This document shows positions 5,860 through 53,626 of a DNA stretch of 64,000 nucleotides, piece by piece. Position 1 is the stretch's first letter. The number at the start of each line of letters is the position of its first letter. The DNA is taken from positions 868,001 to 932,000 of the forward strand of contig NZ_CP128362.1 of assembly GCF_034274695.1 (NCBI RefSeq). Direction: 5' to 3'. The DNA comes from Chitinophaga sp. LS1. GTDB lineage: Bacteria > Bacteroidota > Bacteroidia > Chitinophagales > Chitinophagaceae. Under the pieces are notes generated by a model. That model was not told the origin of the DNA. It searched no databases and worked only from the letters and a program-made list of their open reading frames with translations. The position numbers were made by a program, and so were the translations under genes.

Positions 5860-7134
5860 ATGATAAAGAAAATCCTCCTCCTATTTTTCCTGATATTCCA
5901 TCTTTTAAAAATAGAGGCACAAATAAATAATGGCTATAGCAAAAACTACCAACCAATAAAATCAGGGAATATACTTTGTGACAAGAATTTCTATCTACTT
6001 ACTGCTCTTGCCAGGTATCCTAAAATCAACCAATTAATTGCCGAAAACAAAACGCTCAATAATATATTAAAATCCAAAATCGACTCTATTCATCTTTATG
6101 CCTATAAAAATGGTATGTTCCTGAATGCAGATTCAACTGTCGGAAATTTTATATGGAGCAAGGAAGACACTGCAACCATCTTGCAAGTACTAGGCAATCT
6201 TTACCAATCAAATACATCCTTATTTGACAAATTGATCAATAATGATTTAAGACCGAGCGGTAATTATCAAAAATTCATTAATCGAACTAACGCTGATTTA
6301 TTCCAGCAAGCCTGGAGACAATATCTATACGGAACTAATTACATCATTTCTCAATATGGATTAGGCAAACACCTCCGTTATCCATCCATTGATTCTATCA
6401 GCTATGATGTTAATGGGGAATACTTTCGGTACATGCTAAAACCCCTATTCAATTTCCTTGATTCTCATCAACAGGAAATGACCTTATTTTACCAGCCTAC
6501 GCTACAACTAGCTATCCGCCTGATGGAGGCAAATGACAGAGATGAGGCCGCACGTTTCGAACCAATGGGAAATGGAGAAAATAAAGAAGCTGTAAAAAGT
6601 GTGAAATCAGTTGATTGGAGTAAATATCAATATTCCGTCATCATGGTTCCTGGTGAAGGTCCTGAGTTATATTCCGTTCCCCTCTCTTTTGGTGGAAAAT
6701 TGCGTTGCGAACTGGCAGCAGAACGCTATAATAAAGGATTAGCGCCATATATTATTGTCAGTGGTGGATACTGTCATCCTTTTCACACGCCATATTGTGA
6801 AGCGATTGAAATGAAAAAGTACCTGATAACAAAATTTAACATTCCGGAAAAGGCCATTATTATAGAACCTCATGCGAGACATACTACTACCAATTTCAGA
6901 AACGCGAACCGTTTGATCATCAGATATAACATTCCAATCAACAAACCAGCACTATGTGTATCGACCAGTGATCAATCCGGATATATCGCAGATGATAGGT
7001 TCGATACCAGAAACCTAAAGGAATTAGGTTACCTCCCCTACCAAAAGAAACAAAAAATATCATCACAAGAAACTGTCTTTTATCCAACAATGGAAAGTTT
7101 ACAGATGGATCCATTAGATCCTTTAGACCCGTAG
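5860..7134 (+). CDS. YdcF/SanA-like DUF218 domain protein, exported
   Basis: A 424-residue protein with signal peptide MIKKILLLFFLIFHLLKIEA. The C-terminal half carries the DUF218 fold of the ElyC/SanA/YdcF family: VIMVPGEGPELY, LAAERYNKG, YIIVSGGY, EAIEMKKYL, and IIIEPHARHTTTNFRNA, in which conserved His and Asn residues line the putative active site. Members are implicated in envelope or undecaprenyl-phosphate homeostasis, with poorly defined chemistry. The N-terminal ~240 residues are not recognised. The C-terminus ends in a short MDPLDPLDP repeat. It is divergent from the GH2 pair and followed by a hairpin terminator. Confidence 0.75.
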   Translation: MIKKILLLFFLIFHLLKIEAQINNGYSKNYQPIKSGNILCDKNFYLLTALARYPKINQLIAENKTLNNILKSKIDSIHLYAYKNGMFLNADSTVGNFIWSKEDTATILQVLGNLYQSNTSLFDKLINNDLRPSGNYQKFINRTNADLFQQAWRQYLYGTNYIISQYGLGKHLRYPSIDSISYDVNGEYFRYMLKPLFNFLDSHQQEMTLFYQPTLQLAIRLMEANDRDEAARFEPMGNGENKEAVKSVKSVDWSKYQYSVIMVPGEGPELYSVPLSFGGKLRCELAAERYNKGLAPYIIVSGGYCHPFHTPYCEAIEMKKYLITKFNIPEKAIIIEPHARHTTTNFRNANRLIIRYNIPINKPALCVSTSDQSGYIADDRFDTRNLKELGYLPYQKKQKISSQETVFYPTMESLQMDPLDPLDP

Positions 7135-7171
7135 TAGCGGTTTTTCATTCAATATTTTAACCTCATTTACA

Positions 7172-7205
7172 AAGCCGCTATTATCAAATAGCGGCTTCCT
7201 ATGTT
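7172..7205 (+). terminator. Hairpin terminator after the DUF218 gene
   Basis: A 9-bp stem, AAGCCGCTA (7172-7180) and TAGCGGCTT (7189-7197), with an 8-nt loop, followed by CCTATGTTTT. The U-tract is interrupted, so strength is uncertain. Confidence 0.6.
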
Positions 7206-7407
7206 TTAGCCCGATCTATGATGCTATCCAGGCAGCATTGTCATTTCTAATTTACTGCCATCACATTTCATTCGACCATTAGTAGTTTCATTCCGTTAAT
7301 CTACCAATCAGCATGCATTGCATTACCTATGCGTTTACAGACTGGTTAGCCCTTTAGTTCAGAAATCACAGCATGTTCTTTAACCCTAAATTGTTAAACC
7401 ATATATC

Positions 7408-8973
7408 ATGAGAGAAAAAGCAATAGTTGATCCGCCTGCCAACGCACTCTCTCCTATAGATCATTATACAGGATTATTACCCAGACAGGAAATAACCCAC
7501 AGAAAATTCCTACAATTCGTCATAGGAGAAAATAGGGTCTATCGGTGGATTATGATTTTGCTGATTTACGGACAGTTTATCATCTTTAAACTATGCTACC
7601 CATACCCTGATTTTTTTTCTGATAGTTACAGCTATATAGAGGCTGCCTACAGGCATTTAAATGCGAATATCTGGCCAATTGGATACAGCAAATTTTTATG
7701 GCTGTTTCATTATATTACTTACTCGGCTCTGGCCCTCAACTTTTTTCAATATACTATCATTATATTAGCGGGTCTATATTTCTATAAAACCATTGTATAT
7801 TTCTACCCGACCAGCAAAAGAACAAGGGCTGTTCTTGCTATTTTTTTCTTTTTCAATCCACTTAATTTATACCTCGCAAATTACATCGCTAGCGATGGCC
7901 TATTTGTGGCACTCAGCCTTATCTGGCTGGCTGAATTATTATGGATATTAAACAGGCCAGCTCTCCATCATACTATAATTTTGTCTTTTGTATTTTTAAT
8001 AGCATTTACCTTCAGATATAATGCGTTGTTCTACCCTATTATTACGGCATTGGTATTCCTGTTAAGCAAGCAAAATACCTGGAATAAAATTACAGGTATT
8101 ATTCTAGGACCATTATTAATACTACCGGTTATAGTAATAGTTTCCACTGCTGTAAAGAATATGAGTGGCACTGCCCAATTCCCACCTATTCTTGGTGGCT
8201 GGCAATGGGGTAACAATGCTTTATATTTTCGGGAATATGTAGACGAGGATACTTTACATTTCCCTACCCCTCAAATGGCGGAACTGGATCAAATAGCACG
8301 TGTTTATTATAGAACTGTTCCACCACATAAAAGAGAACTTTCTTCTTATGTTGGGAATTTCTTTATTAAACAATGGGATGCTCCATTAAAGATTTATATG
8401 ATGAAGCATTATCCTGATCCGGATGTAAGCTCCTGGGCAAAAGCAGCGCCGCTCTTTGGAGAATATGGGTTATATATTATAAAAAGGCATCCTGTAGAAT
8501 TTGCCTTGCATTATATATCGATCAATACAAGAAACTACTTTTTCCCTCCAATGGAAAAACTGGAATTATATAATCTAGGTGGTGACGAAATGTGGCCGAT
8601 TGCTGCCTGGTGGTTTCATTATCCATCCACAAGAATGACTGTAATTTCAAAAACATTACAAGGATACATTCTATTAATGCTACCATTCATTTTTTTACTG
8701 GTAAACATATATGGAATATGGGGACTTATATATTATATAAGGATCAAGGGATTTAAAAAGACCTCACGCGTTTTTAACCTGACCATTATGCTACTGGCAG
8801 CTGTGTTAATTCTAAACTTTTCATTTAGCGTATTTGCTAACATAATTGTGATGCGATATCAAATTTTCCCACTGATTACAGGGTTGATTTTTGTCTTACT
8901 ATTATCTGACTACCTGGAATTGAGCTATAGATCCAAGGTGACCAATAAAAATCTGGAATTAGCAACTTTATAA
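7408..8973 (+). CDS. Multi-pass membrane protein, GT-C-like glycosyltransferase candidate (paralogue 1)
   Basis: A 521-residue polytopic protein with about 10-12 hydrophobic segments. A short cytoplasmic N-terminus precedes TM1. The first extracytoplasmic loop has DSYSYIEAA and WPIGYSKF; later landmarks are ANYIASDGLF, RYNALFYP, GGWQWGNNALY and FSVFANIIVMRYQ near the C-terminus. An early Asp in loop 1 of a many-TM protein next to a GT2 polyprenyl-phosphate sugar synthase is the usual setting of GT-C transferases that use lipid-linked sugars. Three relatives lie at 10363-11898, 11910-13433 and 21458-22924. Family assignment is inference. The next gene starts 12 bp downstream, so they are probably co-transcribed. 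Confidence 0.65.
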   Translation: MREKAIVDPPANALSPIDHYTGLLPRQEITHRKFLQFVIGENRVYRWIMILLIYGQFIIFKLCYPYPDFFSDSYSYIEAAYRHLNANIWPIGYSKFLWLFHYITYSALALNFFQYTIIILAGLYFYKTIVYFYPTSKRTRAVLAIFFFFNPLNLYLANYIASDGLFVALSLIWLAELLWILNRPALHHTIILSFVFLIAFTFRYNALFYPIITALVFLLSKQNTWNKITGIILGPLLILPVIVIVSTAVKNMSGTAQFPPILGGWQWGNNALYFREYVDEDTLHFPTPQMAELDQIARVYYRTVPPHKRELSSYVGNFFIKQWDAPLKIYMMKHYPDPDVSSWAKAAPLFGEYGLYIIKRHPVEFALHYISINTRNYFFPPMEKLELYNLGGDEMWPIAAWWFHYPSTRMTVISKTLQGYILLMLPFIFLLVNIYGIWGLIYYIRIKGFKKTSRVFNLTIMLLAAVLILNFSFSVFANIIVMRYQIFPLITGLIFVLLLSDYLELSYRSKVTNKNLELATL

Positions 8974-51006: not shown

Positions 51007-51783
51007 ATGCATCGATTCAACTCATTTTTTGATGAGCTTATTACCCATCCATTATTGAGAGCCTCCCTCAGACTACCTCTATTTCATACCATGGATGTTG
51101 CCACGTTATCTCATATTTTAACGAGCAAGCAACTTCGCCCGCAACCTTGTCCGGTATTTAAAGAGAATCTATTATATCTCAGTTATGGAAAACCGGGGTA
51201 TAAAGTAGACCAACCATTTACAAGTAGACAAACAGCTTTAATGCCTGTGGTAATTATCTTAAAGCCCCAGGCCATCCATAGTATAATTAGGGCGTATCCA
51301 TTTGACTCCGGCGGTTTTAAGCTATATAAAGAACAGATGCATCGAAAAATGCGATTAGAGGATTTTATGATTACTCCTCACCTACCAGCTATTGAGAAGG
51401 TGGTACAATTCTTCTTTGATAATAATATGGGGTATTACCAGGGATCGGCTATTCAACAGATCAAGTATGACCTCATTCAAACCCCAATCGAGGCTTATCA
51501 TGCCTTAATTACCAATAAATGTTTAAGCCAGGCCGATGACCGTAAAATGAGTGTCGAAATCCAAGTTAACTACCCTCTTTTACTTACAAAAGAAACAGTA
51601 GAAGCAATTATTCTACCAGAAATGCTGGCCACTAACTCAATTATAAAAACCTTTGTTAGTGACACCGCTGCAGCTGTAATTAGCATCCCTAATTATGGCT
51701 TGCCTTTTAATATGTACTATGTTTTCTATTTAGAAGAAATCAAAAAATTCTTACAAAAAAAACAATATTTCAATGACAATTGA
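51007..51783 (+). CDS. Unknown protein, possibly ADP-ribosyltransferase-like, first gene of the DnaA-like pair
   Basis: A 258-residue cytosolic protein without signal or TM segments. I do not recognise a named family. Seen: an early His (FHTMDVATLSHILTSKQL), CPVFKENLLYLSYGKPGYKV at about 48-66, and late MSVEIQVNYPLLL and AIILPEMLA. An early His before a helix that ends in an L-x-P, and a late Glu in a strand, recall DarT/PARP-like transferases. This is pattern resemblance only. Its last 11 bp overlap the DnaA-like gene, so the two are translationally coupled. About 270 bp upstream hold no recognised feature. Confidence 0.5.
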   Translation: MHRFNSFFDELITHPLLRASLRLPLFHTMDVATLSHILTSKQLRPQPCPVFKENLLYLSYGKPGYKVDQPFTSRQTALMPVVIILKPQAIHSIIRAYPFDSGGFKLYKEQMHRKMRLEDFMITPHLPAIEKVVQFFFDNNMGYYQGSAIQQIKYDLIQTPIEAYHALITNKCLSQADDRKMSVEIQVNYPLLLTKETVEAIILPEMLATNSIIKTFVSDTAAAVISIPNYGLPFNMYYVFYLEEIKKFLQKKQYFNDN

Positions 51784-53518
51784 TATCGAATATGAGTTAT
51801 ATGGGTTCATTGAATATTTACCCAATAGTATCGGATTTTTATCCCCTGTCTTTAAGTCAGGGGATAATTACTATATGCAAAACTCATATGATAACCACGT
51901 CATAACCTCCTTTCTGGCTTTGCCTCCCTCTCAGACACATCTTATTCAACAATGGCCGAAAGAAAAACTAACCAGAAGGAGTGGACAAAATTGTGTTTTT
52001 GGCTTCAAAAAGGAGAGTCAGATTTTTTTTGCCGAAGGGAAAGTACTCGCACGGCAACTAATTACTGAAGTTCATTTTAACGATGATTGTTATAACCAGG
52101 TACAAAGATTTATCGATGAATTTAAGGATGATAATGATAGTCGCAATCTGGCAGAATCCGTCTGGCGACAGTGTCTAAATATTATTGCTTCACAAAGTCG
52201 TGTTTTTAAAAACCTATTTGAAAAAAATTTCATGCCCTATTATTATGCTACCCCAAATTTATATTTATATTCTAAGAACCCTCAATTAAAAGACATTCTC
52301 CGTAATCAATTTTTCCCGGATATACACGCCTCAATGCTAAATAAATATGGAGATAAATTTAACATTATCATCCATAGTGAAAAAGATTCCGGTATCTCAT
52401 TATATGATGTTAGACCAGTAAAGCTGAATGAGTCTCCTCACTTAAAACATTTCTTCAGTCAAAAAAGAGAAATGATTCCTGGCATGACATTCCAAAACTA
52501 CTTCACTTGCAAATACAATTTGGAAATTTACAACCTATTGTCCCACTTTGTAAGCAGAACTGAAGTGAATGGAGAAAGAGTATTTGTGCTACTTGGTCCA
52601 AATGGTTCAGGGAAAACACATTTATTGCATGCATTAGCAAAGGAATACAGAAACCCTAATATCTACCCACAAACATTGCTTTACACCATCCCCTCTAATT
52701 TTTTCTATGTAGAAGAAATTCTTCAGGAACCGATTGATTTATTTCAAATGCATTGTCGTAACAATGACATAGTAATAATTGATGACGCACAATTTATCTT
52801 TCAGCAAAGAAGTAAGCTAGCTGAATCATTTATTGATATCATCTCTTCTTATATTAAACTGGGGAAAAAGTTCATTTTAGGGTATCAGATTAAGCAGGAA
52901 AATGACAACATTTCGCACCGCATATGTGTCGAGTTGAATACAAACGTCAAATCGGTAAGCATTTCATTGCCTGGCATTCAGGACAAAATTGATTTACTTT
53001 CGAATAAATTATCTAAGAACAATCTTACTTTTTCGGACGACTTTATTAAAAACTTATCATATCTTCTTCCCCCTAGTCTAGAATACATCGACAAATTAAA
53101 TGTTTACATACACCTGCTAATAGAGAGGAATCGATGTGAAAATGATCTCTTAACCTTATGCTCGAATTATCTAAAACACAGAAATCAAAATAACCTAAGT
53201 CTGCTATATGACCTTATCCAATTATATTTTACCCAAAATAATGATATTAAAGGAATGGAAAATATTTCCCTTGAATATGCGAACGCCACTTTTATATGTA
53301 TGTACCTTTCCGAATTATTAATACCTAATAGAGAAGTTTTATCCAGATCCTGGATCAAGGATTACTCTTACCATACACTCACACAGGTTTTCTTTCTAAA
53401 TCCCAATTTTAAAAAACTAATTACCAATATCTTTAAATTCATGATTGACAATGGGTGGCAACTATCTCCCAACAAAACGAAACCATATAAAGATCCTATT
53501 ACCTCCAACCACTTATAA
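51773..53518 (+). CDS. Divergent DnaA paralogue (DnaA-like AAA+ ATPase)
   Basis: A 581-residue protein. Residues 1-125 are unrecognised. Residues 129-205 resemble DnaA domain I (SVWRQCLNIIASQSRVFKNL, PNLYLYSKNPQLKDILRNQF). Residues 232-455 are a DnaA-type AAA+ domain with Walker A GPNGSGKTHLLHAL (275-288), Walker B DIVIIDDAQFIF (332-343) and HRICVELNTN where DnaA has the RLxSRF arginine-finger segment, so the finger Arg appears to be Glu. Residues 474-560 resemble DnaA domain IV (LLYDLIQLYFT, FICMYLSELL), but the GGRDHSTV signature reads IKDYSYHTL. DnaA-box binding is probably lost. It is coupled to the preceding gene. Confidence 0.72.
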   Translation: MTIDIEYELYGFIEYLPNSIGFLSPVFKSGDNYYMQNSYDNHVITSFLALPPSQTHLIQQWPKEKLTRRSGQNCVFGFKKESQIFFAEGKVLARQLITEVHFNDDCYNQVQRFIDEFKDDNDSRNLAESVWRQCLNIIASQSRVFKNLFEKNFMPYYYATPNLYLYSKNPQLKDILRNQFFPDIHASMLNKYGDKFNIIIHSEKDSGISLYDVRPVKLNESPHLKHFFSQKREMIPGMTFQNYFTCKYNLEIYNLLSHFVSRTEVNGERVFVLLGPNGSGKTHLLHALAKEYRNPNIYPQTLLYTIPSNFFYVEEILQEPIDLFQMHCRNNDIVIIDDAQFIFQQRSKLAESFIDIISSYIKLGKKFILGYQIKQENDNISHRICVELNTNVKSVSISLPGIQDKIDLLSNKLSKNNLTFSDDFIKNLSYLLPPSLEYIDKLNVYIHLLIERNRCENDLLTLCSNYLKHRNQNNLSLLYDLIQLYFTQNNDIKGMENISLEYANATFICMYLSELLIPNREVLSRSWIKDYSYHTLTQVFFLNPNFKKLITNIFKFMIDNGWQLSPNKTKPYKDPITSNHL

Positions 53519-53626
53519 TAAAATCTTATATCATTAACTCCGCATTAACTACTCCCTATTTTTTTATCAATAGATTTGGAACGGTATCAACAATTGTCAT
53601 GTAACCTATATCAGAGGGGTCTACTT

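Follow-up and report, generated by a model that had tools for sequence, protein, structure and literature searches.

Why should a degenerate copy of the replication initiator DnaA, extended at its N-terminus by a further domain, be encoded in one unit with a protein of ADP-ribosyltransferase (ART) appearance? The question is raised by two genes, here termed A and B, at positions 51007 to 53518 of a 64,000-nucleotide stretch of the Chitinophaga sp. LS1 genome (contig NZ_CP128362.1, positions 868,001 to 932,000 of the forward strand), the whole of which is referred to as the window. An earlier note on this DNA had proposed a two-gene unit, and this holds: both genes are real open reading frames (ORFs) on the + strand, 51007-51783 and 51773-53518, and the ATG of B lies inside A with an overlap of 11 bp. 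Comparison with relatives of A indicates that it is generally followed by a protein with the N-terminal domain of B, and that the part behind this domain is exchanged between loci. The reading that we favour, tentatively, is an abortive two-gene effector module whose exchangeable sensor often mimics a host protein as a decoy. The features of the two genes are as follows.

51007..51783, + strand: gene A, 258 residues, ATG start; predicted DarT-like ADP-ribosyltransferase-fold protein of no named family
51085..51087, + strand: codon of A His27, unchanged throughout the 71 aligned A; putative triad H (H-Y-E)
51175..51177, + strand: codon of A Tyr57, unchanged throughout the 71 aligned A; putative triad Y
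51304..51312, + strand: A Asp100-x-Gly102 in a PFDSG motif; D and G unchanged throughout the 71 aligned A
51556..51558, + strand: codon of A Glu184, unchanged throughout the 71 aligned A; putative catalytic E
51773..53518, + strand: gene B, 581 residues, ATG start; N-terminal domain and degenerate DnaA (TIGR00362, E 3.1e-24)
51773..52126, + strand: N-terminal domain of B, about residues 1-118, common to B proteins whose C-termini are unrelated; predicted to partner A
52145..52387, + strand: DnaA domain I-like stretch, about residues 125-205; 0 of 500 shuffles reach its score against the host's own DnaA
52478..53047, + strand: DnaA AAA+ domain, residues 236-425, by phmmer to solved DnaA chains and hhalign (P 1.2e-12)
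52595..52618, + strand: Walker A GPNGSGKT, intact
52769..52786, + strand: Walker B IVIIDD, intact
53354..53380, + strand: IKDYSYHTL, near the place of the host DnaA signature GGRDHTTV; placed by an alignment that is not significant alone

The two proteins of the window

The predicted structure of A is confident (predicted local distance difference test, pLDDT, 91) and resembles DarT best in Foldseek searches; a DarT-like ART fold is predicted. H27, Y57 and E184 are invariant in the alignment, which holds 71 of the 83 A proteins (L041, L052, L053, L072, L078, L081, L095, L101, L102, L105, L106 and L108 were excluded as truncated, doubtful or near-identical), and judged by these conserved residues A fits the H-Y-E group of the ART superfamily. 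From the order of the residues and what is known of the family, we take the three to be the putative catalytic triad. Searches of Pfam, NCBIfam and PADLOC assign A to no family, save for one weak match under the cut-off. The DarT profile PF14487 at E 0.1 matches none of the 71 A proteins, nor the A of the window, for which the 2023 copy of PADLOC also returns 0 families. The DarT/PARP-like traits suspected from the letters are borne out by the predicted structure and the invariant residues and not by the sequence profile.

The C-terminal part of B is supported as a degenerate DnaA paralogue. Residues 131-428 match the NCBIfam DnaA model TIGR00362 with 85.8 bits, under the cut-off of 343.9, and further matches are found to Pfam Bac_DnaA (E 1.4e-11) and to solved DnaA chains (E 3.4e-6). 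When aligned to residues 1-85 of the true DnaA encoded by this genome, residues 121-200 score 47, against a mean of 14.5 (sd 6.0) for shuffled sequences, and the profile comparison with DnaA is significant for domain I (hhalign P 0.0008) as it is for the AAA+ domain. For domain IV alone it is not (hhalign P 0.06, bettered by 1 of 20 shuffles; the pairwise score is reached by 311 of 500), and the term 'domain IV-like' therefore rests on co-linearity in the longer alignments; of the DnaA domain order that had been claimed, the first two domains stand and the third does not stand by itself. The remaining details first read from the sequence are confirmed, in that both Walker motifs are intact, neither the arginine-finger segment nor the DNA-binding signature is retained (GGRDHTTV is not present), and the extra N-terminal domain is real. 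This domain, which recurs in B proteins with unrelated C-termini, proves to be the part that matters most. The 2023 copy of PADLOC gives only weak ATPase-type matches for this B (best E 1.6e-5), and no macrodomain is found in it at E 1 among the best 25 of 30 families.

A shared N-terminal domain with exchanged C-termini

B directly follows A in 74 of the 80 loci gathered from plasmid, genome and viral sequences, a set that is counted without the plasmid match H15; the pair therefore recurs in other genomes, and the earlier note, which would have been refuted had the two genes never been met together elsewhere, survives this check. Automatic pairing returned a downstream ORF in 77 of the 80, of which those of L041, L052 and L101 were judged spurious (short or far), and none for L072 and L102, both of which stop close to a contig edge, or for L106 (one long ORF). 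A hidden Markov model (HMM) of the N-terminal domain, built from 59 B, detects 76 of the 77 B taken as true (the 74 paired ones and those of the window, L028 and L029), among them 17 of 18 held-out ones, some of which are close kin of the training rows, and misses L033, L106 and the three spurious ORFs. The domain comprises about 118 residues and is modelled confidently (pLDDT 92.2); comparison with solved structures gave no convincing fold match, from which newness of the fold does not follow.

Two variants of the layout were seen by eye. At L106:5190-7694, in a Cloacimonadales metagenome-assembled genome (MAG), a single ORF of 834 residues appears to join A to TPR repeats by way of a stretch resembling the N-terminal domain, the N-domain HMM giving no confirmation. 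In L153, L154 and L155, from other Chitinophagaceae, A-B is preceded by a small membrane-protein-like gene and followed by one more gene; these flanking genes look alike among the three loci, possibly representing a four-gene variant.

Behind the shared domain, single linkage at E 1e-3 sorts the C-termini of 72 B into 32 families (L033, L053, L078, L095, L105 and L108 were left out of this count and L156 was added). The C-terminal kind differs in 0 of 33 pairs with A identity above 50%, in 17 of 49 at 40-50% and in 64 of 95 at 35-40%, and families of 10, 9 and 6 members are kept in whole clades. Among the 76 B scanned, the C-terminus is ribosomal protein uS9 in four (L071, L082, L092 and L093), DnaA in two (the window and L050), and FtsZ (L069), a cold-shock protein (L103), an RES domain, an FGE-like domain (L107) and the second half of DarG (L100) in one each, with STAND/AAA-like ATPases in a few; a macrodomain is not among the families found, taking the best 25 of 28. 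The family search added L156, a second DnaA-type pair in another Chitinophagaceae genus (TIGR00362, E 7.5e-23), identical to the window at 96 of 252 positions in A and 142 of 522 in B.

These host-protein copies are second copies in most of the cases checked. The genome of the window, a single 8.67 Mb contig, has its own DnaA gene about 130 kb away; an own DnaA is likewise found elsewhere than in the fused gene in L050, an own FtsZ elsewhere in L069, and an own uS9 in three of the four uS9-type genomes, the fourth, a MAG, showing the fused copy only. That the fused copy is the genome's sole one is ruled out in the former cases.

In L050 (Magnetospirillum aberrantis) the gene order is dnaA, A, B, and the DnaA part of B is 88.3% identical (384/435) to the adjacent DnaA. 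Its Walker A reads GLSKT, versus GLGKT in the host, and of 51 amino-acid differences three fall in the last 115 codons, beside five silent changes there; two of these three turn the signature GGRDHTTV into GGRAPTTV. The DnaA copies of the window and L156 keep Walker A and B and miss the signature. The FtsZ copy of L069 is 75.3% identical to that of its host (292/388); its nucleotide loop reads GVGEGGG where the host has GVGGGGG, and its C-terminal peptide is nearly kept. The changes in the FtsZ loop and the L050 Walker A may harm nucleotide binding. The three uS9 copies compared are 62-81% identical to the host's and keep the C-terminal tail, the silent and amino-acid changes numbering 62/34 in L071, 76/24 in L093 and 61/50 in L092. 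The MAG that carries L092 (G653, titled Bacteroides sp.) shares its order with a Provencibacterium MAG and is probably misnamed.

Three further C-termini relate to genes close by. That of L058 copies A itself, with 30% identity across 136 residues and with H27 and Y57 replaced. The C-terminus of L061:4400-6169 shares 29% identity (E 1e-34) with an ORF a short way downstream, 6679-8403, of 575 residues and no Pfam family. In L100, A is preceded by a genuine darT (PF14487, E 1.9e-56) and by an ORF with a macrodomain (PF01661, E 5.5e-27), and B consists of the N-terminal domain and the half of DarG that normally follows the macrodomain (profile 156-338, E 8e-52); A and the N-terminal domain therefore appear inside a split darG (L100:4390-7889). 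The post-macrodomain half of DarG binds DarT.

How the module may work

According to the favoured reading, A would be bound and held inactive in the resting cell by the N-terminal domain of B. The C-terminus would serve as the sensor, copies of host proteins being decoys for attackers of those proteins, most plausibly phage proteins; on engagement or loss of the decoy, A would be freed or activated and, being toxic, would ADP-ribosylate nucleic acid or protein, with the effect that the cell or the phage is stopped. In the window the decoy would be the degenerate DnaA, with domain I and the ATP-binding core kept and the arginine finger and DNA-binding signature gone. We are led to decoys because the copies are second copies where checked and some are altered at functional motifs. 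The earlier suggestion that an effector is teamed with a DnaA-derived decoy or regulator thereby becomes part of the leading reading, and is narrower than the pattern, DnaA being one of the 32 C-terminal kinds.

With slightly more reserve still, the modules may constitute an undescribed class of bacterial immunity in which an ART effector, an adaptor domain and baits made of essential proteins spring a trap on phage attack; the architecture looks new, and the enzyme fold is known. If true, each C-terminus would name a host process hit by phages or other attackers, and the family would amount to a catalogue of phage targets drawn up by nature; pairing baits with phages could then reveal the phage proteins that activate the modules, and bacteria would possess an equivalent of the integrated decoys found in plant immune receptors. 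Few bacterial defence sensors with a host-protein bait are known to us. Plant NLR receptors with integrated decoys likewise join a constant receptor part to an exchanged domain that copies what a pathogen targets; they differ in proteins and kingdom, the present system having two genes and an ART. Searches of the openly licensed literature gave no description of the A-B pair; bioRxiv preprints and most subscription papers lay outside that scope, and a recent account could be missed. Effector-triggered bacterial defences, among them PARIS, PrrC, Ronin and Panoptes, have been reviewed (PMC12409349), and in these, as in the proposed module, a sensor presents something that phages attack and restrains a toxic effector; unlike the module, they involve, in the available excerpt of that review, no copies of essential host proteins as bait and no ART of the family of A (PMC12409349).

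A number of observations weigh against the favoured reading. The likeness of A to DarT amounts to TM-scores of 0.32-0.44 by query length, all Foldseek matches lie above E 1e-3, and hhalign with one DarT gives no sequence-profile link (P 0.22). The spacing within the 74 adjacent pairs (60 overlapping, 11 with a gap of 0-20 bp and three farther, at 50, 60 and 266 bp) leans small because the start of B was set at the start codon nearest the stop of A. The identities of A and of the N-terminal domain are correlated (Spearman 0.29, 0 of 1000 permutations), for which joint inheritance alone can suffice as cause, and L033 has no detectable N-terminal domain. Most C-terminal kinds belong to no named family, and we know of no RES, FGE-like or TPR decoys. 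The copies of uS9 and of the cold-shock protein appear undamaged, and a 'crippled decoy' therefore does not fit them; in L050, with 51 differences in all, the last 115 codons alone single out the signature. Lastly, scans of the neighbouring genes count family models rather than proteins, and the control neighbourhoods also contain defence genes (Cas1, HEC-01A).

The main rival is a toxin-antitoxin pair, which we consider unlikely overall, in which A would ADP-ribosylate the protein copied by B and the C-terminus would act as a pseudo-substrate until B is degraded. This would agree with the overlapping order of A first and B second, with the invariant triad, and with the constancy of the C-terminal kind above 50% A identity; the toxin Tre1 is an ART that attacks FtsZ. 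It agrees poorly with the unrelated C-termini in 17 of the 49 pairs at 40-50% identity, and ATPase-like, RES, TPR and DarG-derived C-termini are no obvious ART substrates. Even so construed, a partner made of DnaA, FtsZ or uS9 copies would be a new form of ART control. The pair resembles the DarTG system in that A is structurally closest to DarT and the enzyme comes first of two adjacent genes; it is unlike DarTG in the lack of a DarT Pfam match in 71 A and of a PADLOC match for the window's A, and in a B with no macrodomain found, an N-terminal domain of no matched fold and a swapped C-terminus. Identity with DarTG is ruled out by the missing DarT profile match and the absence of a macrodomain among the families found in B.

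Rather improbable is a targeting adaptor, whereby the C-terminus would bring A to the ribosome, divisome, origin or single-stranded DNA or RNA for modification there. The kept uS9 tail in the three copies compared and the excess of silent over amino-acid changes look as if entry into the ribosome were still possible, and a cold-shock domain could bind single-stranded DNA or RNA; the DnaA copies, however, have lost the DNA-binding signature and are therefore not expected at the origin as DnaA is. We give still less credence to an opportunistic cassette, in which A and the N-terminal domain would be an addictive insertion that fuses to neighbouring genes, the C-termini having no role. A C-terminus related to a neighbouring gene does occur in four loci (dnaA in L050, its own A in L058, the nearby ORF in L061 and the split darG in L100), but entire clades retain their C-terminal kind, two of the three amino-acid changes in the last 115 codons of L050 strike the signature, and most copied proteins checked have a separate host copy.

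A private replication regulator, in which B would act on DnaA or oriC and A would be unrelated, is very improbable, for although B has a DnaA-like domain I and an AAA+ domain with intact Walker motifs, the same kind of A and N-terminal domain goes with unrelated C-termini in more than 70 loci and A is scarce in relatives (see below). A lone DnaA regulator is ruled out by the 32 C-terminal kinds that the same A and N-domain families carry among 72 B, and replication control in particular, one of the two roles suggested at the outset, finds no support. With DnaA and Hda, B shares the DnaA domain order and profile match of its C-terminus; it differs in its extra N-terminal domain, its low score (85.8 versus 343.9 bits) and its lost signature and arginine finger, and the true dnaA lies elsewhere in the genome.

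Distribution and neighbourhood

Counting the window's own genome, A occurs in 3 of 79 genomes of the genus and 5 of 394 of the family, and the same-species genome G245 has no A that could be found. Order-wide searches, centre included, gave 3 of 394 and 1 of 399 genomes, and among 395 genomes of the phylum the window's genome was the sole match to query A1. No A was found in phages, and three scans yielded five distinct viral contigs; phages and plasmids held only partial DnaA-like matches to B, none spanning 80% of it, and a pattern search with B in genome contigs returned 32 stretches, none a relative. The A-B module is accessory. Its base composition is ordinary for the window, and in a tree of A the window's protein is placed weakly.

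An anti-phage defence role is suggested by the neighbouring genes, of which 145 of 203 ORFs were scanned, together with 136 of 168 control ORFs. Two loci depart from the usual structure. In L041:4429-8185 a shortened A of 149 residues lacks a B and adjoins CBASS genes and a WYL regulator, and is probably a decayed module; in L052:5692-6870 A has an N-terminal extension resembling pentapeptide repeats and no recognisable B.

The boundary of the module can be read from five same-genus relatives with other genes upstream, whose similarity to the right flank begins within about 15 bp of the stop of B:

53514..53532, no strand: right edge of the accessory module, where DNA similarity to five same-genus genomes begins

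From 53532 onward, as seen in L125-L129, different genes lie upstream of a conserved pair, sigma-factor-like and FecR-like, in genomes of the genus, and the site upstream of this pair is likely an insertion hotspot.
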